A stretch of DNA of 64,000 bases from Paludibacteraceae bacterium. GTDB taxonomy: Bacteria; Bacteroidota; Bacteroidia; Bacteroidales; Paludibacteraceae. Under the pieces are notes generated by a model. That model saw only the letters and a list, made by a program, of their open reading frames with translations, was not told the origin of the DNA and did no database searches. Positions 27,385 through 34,146 of the stretch are shown in pieces; within the stretch, counting starts at the first letter, position 1, and each line of letters begins with the position of its first letter. Both the position numbers and the translations under genes were made by a program. The stretch covers positions 1 to 64,000 of the forward strand of contig JAFYQJ010000005.1 of the NCBI GenBank assembly GCA_017547145.1. The letters are read 5' to 3'.

Positions 27385-27560
27385 ACAAAAAAAGCGTGAA
27401 ACTTAACTATCTCCCGCTCATCAAAGGCATCTGGCATAGCCTATACACTACGAAATAAAGTCAAGCCCACGCCTCACGCGTGAGCATTCAACTTATCTCT
27501 TCAGTGTTTTACAAAATCGCCAGATTTTTTGATAAGAAGAAATAAAGCAAAATGCTTAAA
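27385..27560 (-). promoter_or_regulatory. structured leader element A (candidate regulatory RNA)
   Basis: On the minus strand the element opens with hairpin AAGCA-TTT-TGCTT (27557-27545). Next is a long hairpin with a 7-bp clamp ATCTGGC:GCCAGAT (27525-27519 with 27435-27429), middle stems ACACT:AGTGT (27507-27503 with 27449-27445) and ATAAGT:ACTTTAT, and tip CACGC:GCGTG (27482-27468). After it, AGCG pairs with CGCT before seven T residues (27393-27387), like an intrinsic terminator 53 bases before the next ATG. Sequence blocks GGCGATTT, ATAAGTT, TCACGC, AGGCGTGG and TATGCCA recur in element B. It could regulate the beta-barrel gene or be a free RNA of about 215 bases. No known family recognised. 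Confidence 0.55.
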
Positions 27561-27579
27561 ATTATTTTTCCTTTTTTAA

Positions 27580-27597
27580 AATCACACTCTTGTGATT
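27580..27597 (-). other. 7-bp hairpin near the 5' end of the element A transcript
   Basis: AATCACA (27580-27586) pairs with TGTGATT (27591-27597) around CTCT. On the minus strand it would occupy bases +4 to +21 of the transcript from the promoter at 27615-27608. It could protect the 5' end of that RNA, or act as a weak terminator for maf. Confidence 0.5.
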
Positions 27598-27607
27598 CGT
27601 TATTTGC

Positions 27608-27615
27608 AAAGATAA
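27608..27615 (-). promoter_or_regulatory. putative -7 promoter element (TATCTTTG) driving element A
   Basis: An exact TAnnTTTG match on the minus strand lies just after the maf stop. Transcription from about 27601 would produce a leader of about 268 bases containing element A before the beta-barrel ATG at 27333. Confidence 0.55.
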
Positions 27616-27622
27616 CCTTTTT

Positions 27623-28216
27623 TCAAAACTGCTGGAGTTCCTTATAGAGTCGCTGTATAGGTAAGCCCATTACGTTCCAAAACGAGCCCGAAATAGATTC
27701 TATTCCAACAAACCCAATCCATTCTTGTATGCCATAAGCACCTGCTTTGTCGTAAGGTTGGTATGCATCTATATAGTGTATTATTTCCTCTTGCGAAAGT
27801 TTCGAAAAGGTTACTTCCGACCGTACCGAAAAAATGCATTGCTTATTGGTTGTGGTAATGCCAACACCTGTAAAAACTTCATGTGTATTTCCTGATAGTT
27901 GTAGCAACATTTCTTTTGCTTGTTCGGCATTTTCAGGCTTGCCAAATAGTTGATTATTGTGCCAAACAATAGTATCGGCAGTGATGACGAGTTGATTTGG
28001 CTTTATAGGAAATGCATCTGCTTTTTTCTTTGCAAGAAATTCTACTATCTCATTGGCTCGTAGCGACGCAGGAAAACTCTCCTCTACATCTACGGTTTGT
28101 ATGCTAAACTCAATACCTAAATTCGACAATAACTCTTTGCGTCGAGGCGATTGCGATGCCAAAACAACATCAAACGCCTCTATGTTTTTTATTTTGAAAG
28201 TACTGCTCATATTCAT
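27623..28216 (-). CDS. maf: Maf family nucleoside triphosphate pyrophosphatase
   Basis: A 197-residue Maf/HAM1-like pyrophosphatase acting on dTTP, UTP or modified pyrimidine nucleotides. It contains VVLASQSPRRKELL (about residues 17-30), VITADTIV with the catalytic Asp, GKPENAEQAKEMLLQLSGNTHEVFTGV, and AGAYGIQEW. The ATG at 28216 overlaps ubiA by four bases; a second ATG two codons later is also possible. Confidence 0.92.
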   Translation of the reverse strand: MNMSSTFKIKNIEAFDVVLASQSPRRKELLSNLGIEFSIQTVDVEESFPASLRANEIVEFLAKKKADAFPIKPNQLVITADTIVWHNNQLFGKPENAEQAKEMLLQLSGNTHEVFTGVGITTTNKQCIFSVRSEVTFSKLSQEEIIHYIDAYQPYDKAGAYGIQEWIGFVGIESISGSFWNVMGLPIQRLYKELQQF

Positions 28217-29184
28217 CCCAAAGTCGCCATTTTTAGAAAAAGAAATACTAAACTGTAAAGTGTACCAATCAACATCACAAATTTTGTAAGATTGCCAATA
28301 GTTTTATAGTCGTTTGCAGTTTTTGCATTGTAAGTGAGATAAGCCACAAAAATCAATGGTAGCACAATGCCAAAAACAAAATATCGTTCGGTAAGCGAAC
28401 TTCCCTCAAATTTTATTTTATAAAAAACAAAGTACGAAAGCAGTGCTACTATGACAACGAGCAATGTATAAATCACCGCTTTTGCTCGCTTCGTACCAAG
28501 TTTGATAGGCAACGTGCGACATTCCATTTCGCGATCGCCATATTCGTCTTGCAAATCTTTAATTATCTCACGAAGCAACGTAACAAGAAATGCAAAAAGT
28601 GCAAATCCACCAATCCACCCATAACAAATTTTTAATATGGGCGTTTCGTAGATTAGCGACGCATATTTTAGTTCGAAAAAGGCATTTTGGGCAAAAATAA
28701 TAGTGAGCGGCACAAGTGCAGCACAAAATGCAACTGCCAAATTTCCAATCAAAAACTGTCGTTTGTACGACGCAGAATAAAACCACAGCAACCCGGGTAC
28801 AATGACAAAGAGCAATGCCAATGTGGTGTTTCGTAGCAAAAATGCTCCTAACAAACCCAATGCAGTGCCTACGAAAGTTAGGATTTGATAGAATCGCATT
28901 GCACCGCTTTTGTCGATACTTGTGGTTATTATAACTTTTTCAGGTCGATTGATGCGGTCTATTTTTATATCGAAATAATCGTTGATGACGTAGCCACCAG
29001 CAGCTGTAAGCACAGTTGCAAGAACTATCAGTATTAAAATTGGTGTCGGCAGAAGTTGTTCCTCTATCGAAAAACCTTTAAGCAATGGAAAAAGCACTGC
29101 TCGTGCCATAAGAAATTGAATAACAACAATGAATAACAAATTCAGCGGTCGTGTAAGTCGTACGTAATCAATTATTTTTTTCAT
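28213..29184 (-). CDS. UbiA-family prenyltransferase
   Basis: A 323-residue integral membrane prenyltransferase with eight or nine helices. The two Asp-rich motifs that bind Mg2+-diphosphate are NDYFDIKIDRINRP (about residues 69-82) and KDLQDEYGDREMECRTLPIKLG (about residues 209-230). Closest in feel to the geranylgeranylglycerol-phosphate geranylgeranyltransferase-like proteins annotated in many Bacteroidota, but menaquinone, heme O or other acceptors cannot be excluded. It sits 11 bases after the Usp-like gene and overlaps maf. Confidence 0.85.
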   Translation of the reverse strand: MKKIIDYVRLTRPLNLLFIVVIQFLMARAVLFPLLKGFSIEEQLLPTPILILIVLATVLTAAGGYVINDYFDIKIDRINRPEKVIITTSIDKSGAMRFYQILTFVGTALGLLGAFLLRNTTLALLFVIVPGLLWFYSASYKRQFLIGNLAVAFCAALVPLTIIFAQNAFFELKYASLIYETPILKICYGWIGGFALFAFLVTLLREIIKDLQDEYGDREMECRTLPIKLGTKRAKAVIYTLLVVIVALLSYFVFYKIKFEGSSLTERYFVFGIVLPLIFVAYLTYNAKTANDYKTIGNLTKFVMLIGTLYSLVFLFLKMATLG

Positions 29185-29195
29185 ATAAACGTGTA

Positions 29196-29927
29196 TTAGT
29201 CGCAGAGGGCATAAAGGTCGCCTCGCGGATTGATAAGTAGAATAGGAACAAGCGATTGCTGTATCAAGCCTCGCTCTTTAGGTCCGAAAATCAGGTCGTC
29301 CAACCCATATTCGCGCGTAGCAGAAAGCATTATCATACTAAAGCCTTGCTCGTGAGCTTTTGACACCACTTCTTTGTCGATGCCAAAACTATCTTTTTCG
29401 GCTTTCGTACGAGTGTAAACAATCGGAAATTTATCGAGCAAAGTTGCAATGGCATTCGTATGCATTTGTGCTTTGCTACCATAGTCGTTGGCAGTAATGA
29501 GCGTAATGCGGCTCGAGCAGAAACGCCCAAATGCCGAGGCAAACGTAGCTTTTTCTTTGTCTTCTTCCAAAAAACTTACGCTTACGGCTATGTGCGAAAA
29601 ATCTGCTTTTTGGCTCCCTTTTATAAACAAATACGGCACTCTCAACTCTCGGGAGATATTGAGTAGACGTTGTATTTGTTTTGCTTTTGTACGGTCGGGT
29701 ATTTGAAAAAGAAACATCGATGCGTCGTTTGTTTCGGCTATAGTTGCTAGGCTGTTTGTGATGTCGTTTGGCAACGATGCGTATTCAGGCAATAGAGCCA
29801 AATGCTTTGTTTCTTCAAGAAAAAGCCAACGCACCTCTTGCGAAAACTGCTCACTCATCTGCGTAGCAGCCCCCAATGCTTGCTCGGGAAATTCCTCATT
29901 GTGTACAACTATATAAATACGACGCAT
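29196..29927 (-). CDS. universal-stress-protein-like protein
   Basis: A 243-residue cytoplasmic protein with two Rossmann-like alpha/beta halves, as in tandem Usp proteins. The N-terminal half opens with RRIYIVVHNEEFPEQALGAA and the C-terminal half ends FGPKERGLIQQSLVPILLINP, the usual final Usp strand with the nucleotide-binding loop region before it. The ATG at 29927 is chosen over one at 30014, because a TATCTTTG promoter element lies between them (29953 to 29946) and the upstream codons are basic and unstructured. It heads an operon with ubiA and maf. Confidence 0.65.
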   Translation of the reverse strand: MRRIYIVVHNEEFPEQALGAATQMSEQFSQEVRWLFLEETKHLALLPEYASLPNDITNSLATIAETNDASMFLFQIPDRTKAKQIQRLLNISRELRVPYLFIKGSQKADFSHIAVSVSFLEEDKEKATFASAFGRFCSSRITLITANDYGSKAQMHTNAIATLLDKFPIVYTRTKAEKDSFGIDKEVVSKAHEQGFSMIMLSATREYGLDDLIFGPKERGLIQQSLVPILLINPRGDLYALCD

Positions 29928-29945
29928 TTTCTTTTTTTCTTTTCG

Positions 29946-29953
29946 CAAAGATA
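29946..29953 (-). promoter_or_regulatory. putative -7 promoter element (TATCTTTG) of the usp-ubiA-maf operon
   Basis: An exact consensus match on the minus strand ends 18 bases before the ATG at 29927. It excludes the upstream ATG at 30014 as a start if this promoter is used. Confidence 0.55.
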
Positions 29954-29986
29954 GGGTAAAAAACAACTTGCGAATGGCTTTTTTTG

Positions 29987-29994
29987 TACTTTTG
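29987..29994 (+). promoter_or_regulatory. putative -7 promoter element (TACTTTTG) driving element B and mod
   Basis: An exact TAnnTTTG match on the plus strand, with TTG at 29968-29970 as a possible -33 box. Transcription from about 30001 would give a leader of about 262 bases before the methyltransferase ATG, nearly the same length as the element A leader. Confidence 0.5.
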
Positions 29995-30034
29995 TGGCGA
30001 TTGTCGGAGGACATTTTTTTATTTTTTATTAACC

Positions 30035-30266
30035 ATAGCGTTTGCTATTTATTCGAGACATTCTGAAAGTTTGGCGATTTGAAGAAACAAGTCATAGAAT
30101 AAGTTCAGTGAACGTTCACGCAAGGCGTGGACAGAACTTATTGACTTGTGGGTATGCCAAACACCTCAGAATGTGATAAGTGAAGTTCACGTTTATTGCA
30201 TTTGGTGTTTGGAAACCCACTGTCATCGGTAAGTGCTAACGCTGAAAAAGTAGCATTTGCCGATGA
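30035..30266 (+). promoter_or_regulatory. structured leader element B (candidate regulatory RNA) before mod
   Basis: The element opens with hairpin ATAGC-GTTT-GCTAT (30035-30048). A long hairpin follows: clamp GTTTGGC:GCCAAAC (30069-30075 with 30156-30162), stems ACAAGTC:GACTTGT (30087-30093 with 30143-30149) and AATAAGTTC:GAACTTATT (30098-30106 with 30134-30142), and tip CACGC:GCGTG (30117-30129). The clamp's 3' strand can pair instead downstream: GTGGGT and CCAAACACC (30148-30165) with GGTGTTTGG and ACCCAC (30204-30220). A last hairpin (30223-30266) covers the start codon. Compared with element A, stems keep pairing through compensatory changes. The 335-base gap 29928-30262 holds no gene that I can support. 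Confidence 0.6.
30223..30266 (+). promoter_or_regulatory. 16-bp hairpin that buries the mod start codon
   Basis: Positions 30223-30238 pair with 30251-30266 over 16 consecutive pairs, two of them G-T, around a 12-base loop. The ATG at 30263-30265 lies at the base of the 3' arm. Formed in the mRNA, this stem should hinder initiation of the methyltransferase. Confidence 0.65.
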
Positions 30267-31942
30267 GTACAAACCTATCAAAACTTCATCGCGAAGAGTT
30301 GTTGGATAAAATTCAGCAGATTCGCACATTTATTGCAAAAGCCAATCAAGATGAAAACACACAAAATCTTCTGCAATATCTTAATGAACTAACCAAAGAC
30401 GTTAAAGGCAAAAAATACGGGCTTGTTTTTGAAGAACACCGTGAAAGCATTGACGAAACACTTGAAAATAATCTTCCTGTATTGACGGAAGACGAAAGCC
30501 TTTTTATTAATAACGGCGGACAAATGAACTTTCTTATAGAAGGCGACAATTTGGCAAGCCTTAAACTTTTAGAAAAAACGCATAAAGGCAAAATAGATAT
30601 TATTTATATAGACCCACCTTACAATACAGGCGCAAAAGATTGGAAATATAATAATGACTATGTTGATGATAATGACACATTTAGACACAGTAAATGGGCG
30701 AGTATGATGTGTGCAAGATTGTCAATTGCTAAAAATTTGTTAACAGATAATGGCATATTAGTATGTGCTATTGACCATTATGAGTTATATCAAATTGGTA
30801 TGATATTAGACACTTTATTTGGTGAAGATAATCGTATCGGTATTTGCGCTGTTGTTCATAAACCAGAAGGGAGAAATCAAGAAAAATTTTTTGGAACAAG
30901 TCACGAATATGCATTATATTATGCTAAAAACAAAAATTTAGCAAGATTTAACAAAGTAATTTTAGATGAGGAAATGCAACAATCTTTTGATAAATATGAT
31001 GAACAAGGGGCTTATAAAAGAAAAAACTTTATACGCCTTGCGGATGGAAAATATGCTACAAGAGAAGCAAAACCTAATTTTTGGTACCCAATATATGTAA
31101 GTCCTGAATTAAACAATTTTTCTCTTGTAAAAAATGATGGTTGGTTTGAGATATTTCCTGTTATTAAAAGCGGAGTAGAAAGAACATGGAAAACTTTGCC
31201 GGCTACATTTATGAAATTAGTTGCAGAAAATTCAATAGAAGCAGACTTTGTTGATGGACGAGTTGAAATATATGAAAAATTAAGAGAAAATCAAGTAATA
31301 AAGAGCCATTGGATAAAAAAAGAGTATCATGCATATCATTTTGGTTCAAAAATATTAAATGAAATATTAGGAACAAAAAAATTTGATTTTCCTAAATCGT
31401 TATTTTTAATGCGTGATATATTTAAACTAATTTCCCCAAGAAATGCAACAATTCTTGACTTTTTTGCAGGTAGCGGAACTACGGGACACGCCGTTATGAA
31501 ATTGAATAGCGAAGACGGCGGTCAGCGTAAATTTATCCTTTGCACCAACAATGAAAATAATATCTGCCGTGACGTTACCTATGAACGCATTAAGCGTGTA
31601 ATTGATAAAGAAAATTACAGCGCAAGCCTTAAATATTTCAAGGTGGATTTTGTGCCTATTACGGATAAACTCTACTACGAATACGCCGACGACCTTTTGA
31701 AATACGTTAGGGGGCTTGTAGAACTTGAAAATGGCATAAACTTTAACGGAAATGCGGAAATTGCAATCTTGCTTACCGATGCAGAATTAGATGCATTTAT
31801 GATAAACGTTCCCATAGGTTGTAAAACCATTTATATTGGCCACAATGTATTGCCAAACGAAACTCACATGCGAGCTTTTCAGCAATACGGCATCAGCATA
31901 AAAATTATACCTGAATATTACTACAGAAATTTGGAGGCTTAA
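30263..31942 (+). CDS. mod: type III restriction-modification DNA methyltransferase (Mod)
   Basis: A 559-residue N6-adenine (or N4-cytosine) DNA methyltransferase. The catalytic motif DPPY lies at residues 117-120 and the SAM-binding FFAGSGTTGHA at about 399-409. This catalytic-before-SAM order is the beta class used by type III Mod proteins. Residues about 150-390 between the motifs form the target-recognition domain and look more AT-rich and less conserved than the flanks. Mod gives sequence specificity to both modification and cleavage. The ATG at 30263 is preferred to a TTG six bases upstream. It is two bases from res, so the pair forms an operon. Confidence 0.92.
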   Translation: MSTNLSKLHREELLDKIQQIRTFIAKANQDENTQNLLQYLNELTKDVKGKKYGLVFEEHRESIDETLENNLPVLTEDESLFINNGGQMNFLIEGDNLASLKLLEKTHKGKIDIIYIDPPYNTGAKDWKYNNDYVDDNDTFRHSKWASMMCARLSIAKNLLTDNGILVCAIDHYELYQIGMILDTLFGEDNRIGICAVVHKPEGRNQEKFFGTSHEYALYYAKNKNLARFNKVILDEEMQQSFDKYDEQGAYKRKNFIRLADGKYATREAKPNFWYPIYVSPELNNFSLVKNDGWFEIFPVIKSGVERTWKTLPATFMKLVAENSIEADFVDGRVEIYEKLRENQVIKSHWIKKEYHAYHFGSKILNEILGTKKFDFPKSLFLMRDIFKLISPRNATILDFFAGSGTTGHAVMKLNSEDGGQRKFILCTNNENNICRDVTYERIKRVIDKENYSASLKYFKVDFVPITDKLYYEYADDLLKYVRGLVELENGINFNGNAEIAILLTDAELDAFMINVPIGCKTIYIGHNVLPNETHMRAFQQYGISIKIIPEYYYRNLEA

Positions 31943-31944
31943 TT

Positions 31945-34146
31945 ATGACAATAACATTAGCAAACTATCAACTCGATGCCATCAAAAGTTTGATGGAAAG
32001 AATGGAAGAGGACACCTATCAAGACATTGTACTAAAAAGCCCTACAGGTAGCGGAAAAACAATTATACTTACGCACTTTATGAATGAATATATACAAGGG
32101 CATATAAAAACCGTTTTTGTTTGGCTTACGCCCGGCAAGGGAAACTTGGAAGAACAAAGCAAGGCAAAAATGGATAAATATATTCATAACTCCTCCACCA
32201 AACTGCTCGCAGATATAATGACAAGTGGATTCCAAGAAAACGATTGCTGTTTTATAAATTGGGAAAAACTCACAAAGAAAGGCAATAACGCCTTAAAAGA
32301 TAGTGAACGCACCAACTTTTTAGAGTGGATTGACAAGGCGTTTAATAACGGCATTACTTTTAAGATTATCATTGACGAAAGCCACCAAAACTTTACCGAA
32401 AAATCTGATGCGATTATCCAACTTTTTAAGACGGACAAAATTATACGCTGTTCGGCAACACCGCTTGTAAGCAAAGATGCAACACTTATCGAAATAAGTG
32501 AAGAAGAGGTGATAAAAGAGGGACTTATCAAAAAAATGCTAATAATAAACAAGGATTTTCCATCAGAAATAGATACAGATAACCAAACGCATTATCTTCT
32601 TGAAAAAGCGTACTCAAAACAACAAGAATTACGTTCTCTTTTCTTGCAACGCGAACTTGATATAAACCCTTTAATCGTTGTGCAGTTGCCGAATAAATCT
32701 GACGCACTTTGCGATACGGTTGAAAAGTGGTTTGAAAGTAAAGGCGTTACAACGGAAGCGGAAACACTTGCTATATGGCTTTCGGGCAGGCACGAAAACG
32801 TTGACGGTATTTCCAACAACAATGCAGAAAGCATTGCCGTTATTATGAAACAAGCCGTTGCAACGGGTTGGGATTGCCCTCGTGCTCATATCCTTGTAAA
32901 GTTGCGTGAGAATATGGACGAAACGTTTGAAATTCAAACGATAGGTCGTATTCGCCGTATGCCCGAAGCAAAACACTATGAAAACGATTTGCTTGACAGT
33001 TGCTATCTTTATACGTTTGACGGCAAGTTTACGCAAGACGTTAAACAAAGTCTTGGAAAGTCGGCATTGGAAGCAAAAACAGTTTTTTTGAAAAACGAAT
33101 ACAAATCGTTTACACTGACAAAAGAACAACGCACCATGGTAACCGATTTGCGTGATCCTCGCAAGGCGTTGACGTCTATTGCAGAATATATAAAAAAAGA
33201 GTTTGGGCTTACAAACGATAAAAAAGCAAATAAAACTTGTTTGGAAATAAAAAACTTTGTTTTTTCTCACGACATAATACGCTATACGTATTCTGGCAAG
33301 ATTATAACGCTCAACCAATTATCTAATACCGAACGGTTAAATGCAATTGCCATCCGCGAACCTATAAATACACATATACACGGACGTGAATTTCATAATC
33401 GAGTAGGAAAAATTGGACTCGAAATAGGTATGTCGTACGAATTTATGAATACGATAATTGGTAAATTATTCAGCGAAAAATTAAATTTTACAAACAAAAT
33501 ATTAGCACTTTCACCCCGAGAGTTGTACGCTTTTGTAATTAACAACTTTGAACTATTACGCCAAATTTGTCGCACCGCTATGGCGGTGCAATTAAGCCAA
33601 ATGGTAATATCTTCTGATATGATTTCAACAAAACAATTTACCATACCACACGAACTACTATTTACGTATAATGCAAAAATCAAAGTACAAGCAATCAGCA
33701 GAAAAAGTGTGTATGGTGGTTATTTGATTTCAGCAGAACCTCGTTCATCATCAGAAAAGAAATTTGAAAAATTTTGTGAAGACTGCTCCGCTGTTGATTG
33801 GATATATAAAAACGGTGATAAAGGCGATGAATTTTTCTCGCTTGTTTATACGGACAATTCAAACCGTCAAAAACTTTTCTATCCTGACTATATCGTTAGT
33901 GTAAAAGGCGAAACTTGGATTATAGAAACAAAGGGCGGTTTCGATAAGACGGGTACAAGCGAAGATATAGATATTTTCTCGCCTAAAAAGTTCGACGTCT
34001 TAAAAGAATATCTTAATAAACACGGTCTTAAAGGCGGTTTTGTCCGCTACGATAAACAAAGCGAAGAACTTTGCATTTGTACCAATAACTACAACGACGA
34101 TATATACTCTGACGATTGGAAGATTTTGAGAGATATATGGGAATAA
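31945..34146 (+). CDS. res: type III restriction enzyme Res subunit (helicase-nuclease)
   Basis: A 733-residue SF2 translocase joined to a nuclease. It has Walker A SPTGSGKT (residues 32-39), DESH box (about 143-146), CSATP motif III, a GWDCPRAHILVKLR and QTIGRIRRMPE motif V/VI region (about 310-345), and a C-terminal PD-(D/E)xK nuclease with FYPDYIVSVKGETWIIETKGG (about residues 644-666). With Mod it should cut DNA bearing two unmethylated sites. It is shorter than classic EcoP1I Res (about 970 residues) but keeps all motifs, so it looks intact. Confidence 0.92.
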   Translation: MTITLANYQLDAIKSLMERMEEDTYQDIVLKSPTGSGKTIILTHFMNEYIQGHIKTVFVWLTPGKGNLEEQSKAKMDKYIHNSSTKLLADIMTSGFQENDCCFINWEKLTKKGNNALKDSERTNFLEWIDKAFNNGITFKIIIDESHQNFTEKSDAIIQLFKTDKIIRCSATPLVSKDATLIEISEEEVIKEGLIKKMLIINKDFPSEIDTDNQTHYLLEKAYSKQQELRSLFLQRELDINPLIVVQLPNKSDALCDTVEKWFESKGVTTEAETLAIWLSGRHENVDGISNNNAESIAVIMKQAVATGWDCPRAHILVKLRENMDETFEIQTIGRIRRMPEAKHYENDLLDSCYLYTFDGKFTQDVKQSLGKSALEAKTVFLKNEYKSFTLTKEQRTMVTDLRDPRKALTSIAEYIKKEFGLTNDKKANKTCLEIKNFVFSHDIIRYTYSGKIITLNQLSNTERLNAIAIREPINTHIHGREFHNRVGKIGLEIGMSYEFMNTIIGKLFSEKLNFTNKILALSPRELYAFVINNFELLRQICRTAMAVQLSQMVISSDMISTKQFTIPHELLFTYNAKIKVQAISRKSVYGGYLISAEPRSSSEKKFEKFCEDCSAVDWIYKNGDKGDEFFSLVYTDNSNRQKLFYPDYIVSVKGETWIIETKGGFDKTGTSEDIDIFSPKKFDVLKEYLNKHGLKGGFVRYDKQSEELCICTNNYNDDIYSDDWKILRDIWE

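Follow-up and report, generated by a model that had tools for sequence, protein, structure and literature searches.

Two structured leader RNAs in a 64,000-nucleotide stretch of a Paludibacteraceae bacterium genome (GenBank assembly GCA_017547145.1, contig JAFYQJ010000005.1, positions 1 to 64,000; hereafter the window) belong to a real, widespread and previously undescribed family. Element A occupies positions 27385-27564 of the minus strand and element B positions 30029-30201 of the plus strand; judging from sequence and covariance-model scores, both are members of one RNA family. We consider it probable, at roughly 0.6, that this family, with about 35 members in the genome including A and B, consists of messenger RNA (mRNA) leaders of Bacteroidia which work as cis-acting transcription attenuators. 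The layout of the leader is that of a transcription attenuator or riboswitch. An undescribed class of this kind had been suggested by an original prediction made from the letters of the window, and this suggestion is now supported by the number of copies, by covariation in large alignments, by the lack of a corresponding Rfam family and by a terminator/antiterminator pairing; since this pairing coevolves, the attenuator reading is strengthened.

Results

A widespread family of RNAs

A blastn search with A detected five more copies in the source genome as well as copies in its relatives, and B was linked to other copies by the same program (E 1e-13 to copy L023). Two covariance models were used: R1, built from 18 copies with B left out, and R2, built from 74 diverse copies including A and B. 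R1 scored A at 159.6 bits and B at 58.4 bits (E 1e-9), the runner-up site in the 64 kb of the window reaching 22.5 bits; the kinship of the two elements, claimed by the original prediction, was thus recovered by a model that had not seen B. With R2, over its full length (1-182 in the case of A), the scores were 135.4 bits (E 1.4e-19) for A and 91.0 bits (E 1.1e-12) for B, at a noise level of 17 bits.

In the source genome (1.86 Mb), R2 found 35 copies at E<1e-3, so that about 33 had been overlooked when only A and B were described, and R1 matched 66 of 120 relatives. Whole-genome searches with R2 at E<=0.01 gave 39 copies in Odoribacter lunatus, 16 each in Parabacteroides goldsteinii and Butyricimonas synergistica, and 9 in Bacteroides cellulosilyticus. 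At least 58 of 247 genomes sampled from the class Bacteroidia matched at E<=1e-4 when ten candidates per genome were scored. An exact pattern search of GTDB genomes returned Bacteroidota almost exclusively, among the matches listed. Three matches in metagenome-assembled genomes labelled Firmicutes are probably due to contamination (copy L180 equals the Dysgonomonas copy L254 over the compared element), and four weak blastn matches in distant genomes (L012, L014, L015 and L016) were discarded as AT-rich chance matches. The R2 model had no match in 50 kb of Escherichia coli DNA, B had none among plasmids, and the exact pattern was found just three times in viral contigs. Many copies are found at a distance of 50-400 bases from the end of a contig, both in Odoribacter lunatus (G124) and on short contigs of genomes G040 and G118; in Odoribacter, the breaks fall downstream of the leaders, where the genes behind them are near-identical repeats.

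None of the Rfam 15 families matched the element at or above its gathering threshold, and searching by E-value produced chance-level hits only, such as L20_leader over A (20 bits at a gathering threshold of 58.7). A full-text literature search, which included transcriptome papers on Bacteroides and flavobacteria (PMC7366714, PMC10994844, PMC9723704), found no account of the leader RNA.

Position between promoter and gene

The copies nearly always point toward a gene. An open reading frame (ORF) of at least 80 codons on the same strand follows 205 of 237 copies, the median distance from terminator to start being 57 nt. On the upstream side, 82% of copies carry the promoter motif TAnnTTTG no farther than 150 nt away, usually at 30-70 nt, compared with 11% for shuffled sequences and 19% for the reverse strand. 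The RNA has a promoter ahead of it and a gene of the same orientation behind it, and at its end there is a terminator strand, with a run of at least five U in 94% of the 114 copies examined.

Covariation and two alternative folds

Covariation was measured by column-pair G statistics with average product correction, together with slide controls, swap tests and nearest-neighbour tests. The base-pair changes noticed originally between two copies hold in the larger alignments. In 170 non-redundant copies, covariation was strongest between the paired columns of helices H2, H3 and H6, between the 5' strand and the one preceding the tip, and between M and T, which are the 3' strand of the tip and the last strand ahead of the U-tract. 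In alignment A6, the rod and pseudoknot helices were paired in 79% of cells (39-50% when slid), with double changes in 31 of 34 pairs, and M:T was paired in 96% (20-58% when slid), with double changes in four of five.

In element A (minus strand), H2 is formed by 27528-27536 and 27417-27425, the clamp H3 by 27519-27525 and 27429-27435, and the tip hairpin H6 (GCTCACG:CGTGGGC; 99% of cells paired, double changes in five of six pairs in the family) lies at 27465-27485. The 5' strand (27536-27557) may either fold locally, as the hairpin AAGC..GCTT, or pair over a long range with positions 27484-27502 to give helix alpha. These positions are the P strand (GAAGAGATAAGTTGAATGC), common to alpha and to the rod helices H5/H6. 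The M strand (GCGTGGGCTTGACT, 27459-27472) pairs with P in the rod or with T (AGTTAAGTTTCACGC, 27394-27408), the 3' strand of the putative terminator, which is followed by a U-tract of seven U (27387-27393).

When the strands of H2, H3, H4, H6, alpha, P:M and M:T were swapped between copies, own partners fitted better in each case and none of 200 permutations was as good; control segments paired with T gave nothing comparable. The energies with own and swapped partners were -9.5 and -1.9 kcal for H2, -12.1 and -5.7 for H3, -15.2 and -10.4 for alpha, and -20.4 and -14.0 for M:T. As permutations ignore kinship, each copy was also compared with its closest relative of below 80% identity (median 73%), a test which corrects for phylogeny just partly and which gave p values of 2.5e-9 for M:T, 8e-6 for P:M and 0.003 for alpha, three controls being not significant.

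P has either the 5' end or M as its partner, and M has either P or T; therefore, the rod fold and the terminator fold are mutually exclusive. The energies of P:M and M:T are nearly equal, with a median difference of 1.3 kcal. Covariation in the aligned sequences supports the existence of both folds. A different antiterminator, in which the 5' AAAAGC would pair with a terminal GCTTTT, was rejected, as the 5' strand and T do not truly coevolve.

As would be expected of a riboswitch, the RNA has a conserved, aptamer-like domain with a covarying structure across lineages. Near-invariant unpaired positions flank H3: AA before the helix (99-100%), and GG before and ACC (91-99%) after its 3' strand. 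On the basis of their conservation, these are the best candidates for a putative binding site. Around the same strand, GGY..RCC covaries (GGU..ACC to GGC..GCC) at 27427-27442 of the minus strand of the window, where GGC..GCC flanks the clamp strand, and in L064, L068, L071 and L124; this additional pairing is accounted for by neither fold.

Elements A and B

Both elements fold more stably than dinucleotide shuffles (z -5.2 for A and -4.6 for B), each outperforming all 200 of them. What the original prediction had described in the two elements proved accurate. All five shared sequence blocks are present; the clamps are ATCTGGC (27525-27519) with GCCAGAT (27435-27429) in A and GTTTGGC (30069-30075) with GCCAAAC (30156-30162) in B; the middle stems and the 5' hairpins, as well as the TAnnTTTG promoters (27614-27607 minus and 29987-29994 plus), lie where they were placed; and the leaders, expected to be about 265 bases, measure approximately 265-270 nt from expected transcript start to gene start. 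It had missed the pseudoknot helix in which the 5' end takes part, the 3' terminator strand with its U-tract, and a 9-bp outer stem (CTTATCAAA:TTTGATGAG in A and ACATTCTGA:TCAGAATGT in B).

Neither element is inside a likely gene of the window. Element A lies between a maf-like ORF and a gene (27333-26641, minus) for a 230-aa exported protein without a Pfam match. Its Bacteroidota -7 promoter element, TATCTTTG (27607-27614), agrees with the family-wide enrichment of TAnnTTTG, and the predicted transcript carries near its start a 5' hairpin (AATCACAAGAGTGTGATT, 27580-27597); most close relatives have a hairpin of variable sequence there.

Element B lies between a stress-protein ORF and the mod gene of a Type III restriction-modification (R-M) system. 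Behind its promoter element TACTTTTG come, all on the plus strand, the 5' hairpin TAGC..GCTA (30036-30047), H2 (30058-30066 with 30166-30174, 9 bp), the clamp H3, H4 (30087-30093 with 30143-30149) and the tip hairpin H6 (GTTCACG:CGTGGAC, 30114-30132), assigned from the sequence in line with the swap tests and, for the tip, the pair counts of the family. The M strand (30126-30137) can pair with the 5' strand of the tip or with T (30185-30191); T, GTTCACG, is followed by a poor U-tract, TTTATT (30185-30197 together). Past the terminator, GGTGTTTGG (30204-30212) is complementary to the region of the H3 3' strand at 30157-30165 and pairs with it in the predicted fold; such a segment complementary to the 3' strand of the clamp comprises 9 bp in B and about 15 bp in copy L120. 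A further predicted hairpin, CATCGGTAAGTGC:GCATTTGCCGATG (30224-30265), would enclose the ATG at 30263, and its first part is also present behind the B-type copies L105, L110 and L129. The gene that starts there encodes a Type III DNA methyltransferase (Mod, 30263-31942; PADLOC MTase_III, 1.9e-107), and the next gene on the same strand the restriction subunit (Res, 31945-34146; REase_III, 1.7e-14).

Genes behind the leaders

Pfam matches reveal no theme that unites the downstream genes, and the idea of one common downstream function was rejected on this ground. No common pathway was recognized among them; their products appear to be exported in 69% of cases, compared with 23% of other ORFs at the same loci, according to a simple signal-peptide rule. 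Nine copies in the source genome (L298, L302, L306, L307, L315, L316, L317, L321 and L323) precede paralogous helix-turn-helix genes of about 75 codons, with the ATG mostly at or just past the U-tract. B represents a distinct subtype. Besides the leader in the window (30029-30265), six of its relatives from other genera (L105, L110, L129, L365, L366 and L120) stand in front of methyltransferase genes, of Types III, IIG and II, and methyltransferases are far commoner behind B-type leaders than behind the remaining copies (Fisher p 4e-9, from rough counts). Behind one short match, L370, there is a Type I/II-like methyltransferase, and behind one copy, L364, a HAD hydrolase.

Several copies are 92-99% identical in their RNA between the source genome and sister species, compared with about 75-80% in the syntenic flanks. 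At two loci, sister species have the RNA and its upstream flank in common but different genes downstream, the point of exchange coinciding exactly with the RNA 3' end: L078 shares its RNA and upstream flank with L290 and its gene with L296, and the second pair is L008/L289.

Discussion

In the mechanism which we propose, the nascent leader would take either of two global folds. In the rod fold, P would pair with M (H5/H6) within a long rod H2-H3-H4-H5-H6, leaving T without M. In the terminator fold, the 5' end would pair with P to form alpha, and M with T just ahead of the U-tract, so that RNA polymerase would stop. A signal favouring one fold would then set whether the downstream gene is read. 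The leader would thus work like a riboswitch platform, direct binding of a ligand being a prediction of the model. Since no pathway unites the regulated genes, most of which encode surface proteins, a single global intracellular signal appears plausible, and the conserved internal loops around H3 might sense it directly, in the manner of a riboswitch. The data show the family, its place in leaders, the helices, the mutual exclusion of the folds and the coevolution; termination in the cell, the fold which corresponds to the 'on' state and the nature of what is sensed are points that we infer.

Several observations weigh against this interpretation. The permutation statistics ignore phylogeny, for which the nearest-neighbour test is a partial correction. 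In about half of the copies, A included, T can pair locally with the adjacent segment L; therefore, the rod fold might also terminate there, and in these copies the switch may work in the opposite sense or be three-way. Minimum free energy (MFE) folding without pseudoknots favours the rod fold by about 10 kcal for both A and B. A simple terminator scan calls no terminator at the 3' end of either element, and the U-tract of B is poor. Absence of a shared pathway is, moreover, unusual for metabolite riboswitches.

Alternatively, the leader might be the same attenuator, with its fold chosen in trans (by the ribosome, a small RNA, a NusG-like factor or an antiterminator protein that binds RNA) rather than by a small molecule bound to it. 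The lack of a common metabolic theme among the regulated genes, the nine copies in front of paralogous helix-turn-helix proteins of about 75 aa, and the conserved internal loops of the rod (AA and ACC), which could be a protein site, all agree with such control. However, the elaborate pseudoknotted fold exceeds what known protein antiterminator targets are generally understood to need, and no such factor was found, so that we regard this version as rather unlikely. It is quite improbable that the RNA is a free-standing small RNA resembling the 6S rod and located before genes by chance: it has its own promoter, a rod-like MFE fold and an end carrying the terminator strand and U-tract, but most copies have a same-strand gene at a narrow distance, several genomes contain 20-39 diverse copies, the Rfam 6S families do not match, and M:T coevolution would be unnecessary for such an RNA. 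A mobile element, a miniature inverted-repeat transposable element (MITE) or a recombination site, with the structure belonging to the DNA, is very improbable, since the gene exchanges precisely at the RNA 3' end (L078/L290/L296; L008/L289) and the accessory character of the genes downstream are outweighed by compensatory changes that track RNA pairing, by an orientation nearly always directed toward genes and by the high identity of the RNA between species relative to its flanks.

The original prediction had also allowed for a mobile non-coding RNA. Of this idea, the gene swaps at the RNA 3' end keep a little alive, and the between-species identity and the orientation of the copies speak against it. 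Nothing ties the copies to the end of an insertion sequence or a MITE, and the same two properties, orientation and conservation between species, argue against such an origin.

The attenuator that we favour resembles transcriptional riboswitches with terminator/antiterminator platforms, regulons of the cyclic di-GMP (c-di-GMP) and ydaO/cyclic di-AMP (c-di-AMP) types serving as analogues, in its folded conserved 5' domain, its mutually exclusive helices sharing one strand, its U-tract and its position before genes. Like the second-messenger classes, it accompanies many diverse genes per genome. It differs from the c-di-GMP and ydaO/c-di-AMP riboswitches in having neither an assigned ligand nor an Rfam match, in its number of copies (about 35 in 1.86 Mb) and in its regulon of exported-protein and R-M genes. 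6S RNA is likewise a long irregular rod, but the family of A and B is multi-copy, lies before genes, shows competition for the terminator strand and lacks an Rfam match. The cis-regulatory candidate DUF805b RNA (Rfam RF02914) is also a leader motif, here ahead of secreted-protein genes; it is, however, a separate, non-homologous motif of 35 nt which also occurs without an element of the A/B type. This motif was not found within the element, its matches lying 24-29 nt downstream or elsewhere. Several leaders of the source genome have it at a fixed 24-29 nt past the terminator; such two-module leaders number at least five (L296, L308, L311, L313 and L352). Flavo-1 and other orphan RNA motifs of Bacteroidota are, like the present family, structured, multi-copy and of unassigned function. 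The orientation of Flavo-1 relative to transcripts is not consistent (PMC9723704), whereas A, B and their relatives are almost always directed toward genes, and no Rfam model of these motifs matches them.

Bacteroidota are major members of the gut flora, and gene regulation in them is poorly mapped; to our knowledge, few of their riboswitches are known. One family of leaders that reaches about 40 copies in a genome and is placed before surface-protein and restriction genes would constitute a regulatory layer covered neither by Rfam nor by the transcriptome papers (PMC7366714, PMC10994844, PMC9723704). Cultured carriers, namely Bacteroides cellulosilyticus, Parabacteroides goldsteinii, Butyricimonas synergistica and Odoribacter, allow direct testing. 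If a small molecule is sensed, it is likely to be a global signal of the phylum. More tentatively, and at somewhat under even odds, the family may be a phylum-wide riboswitch for such a signal, either a second messenger or an energy or phage-stress metabolite without a matched RNA; it would govern about 2% of genes in some Bacteroidia, chiefly those of the surface proteome and R-M systems, and its leader would be put to use again whenever the gene behind it is exchanged.

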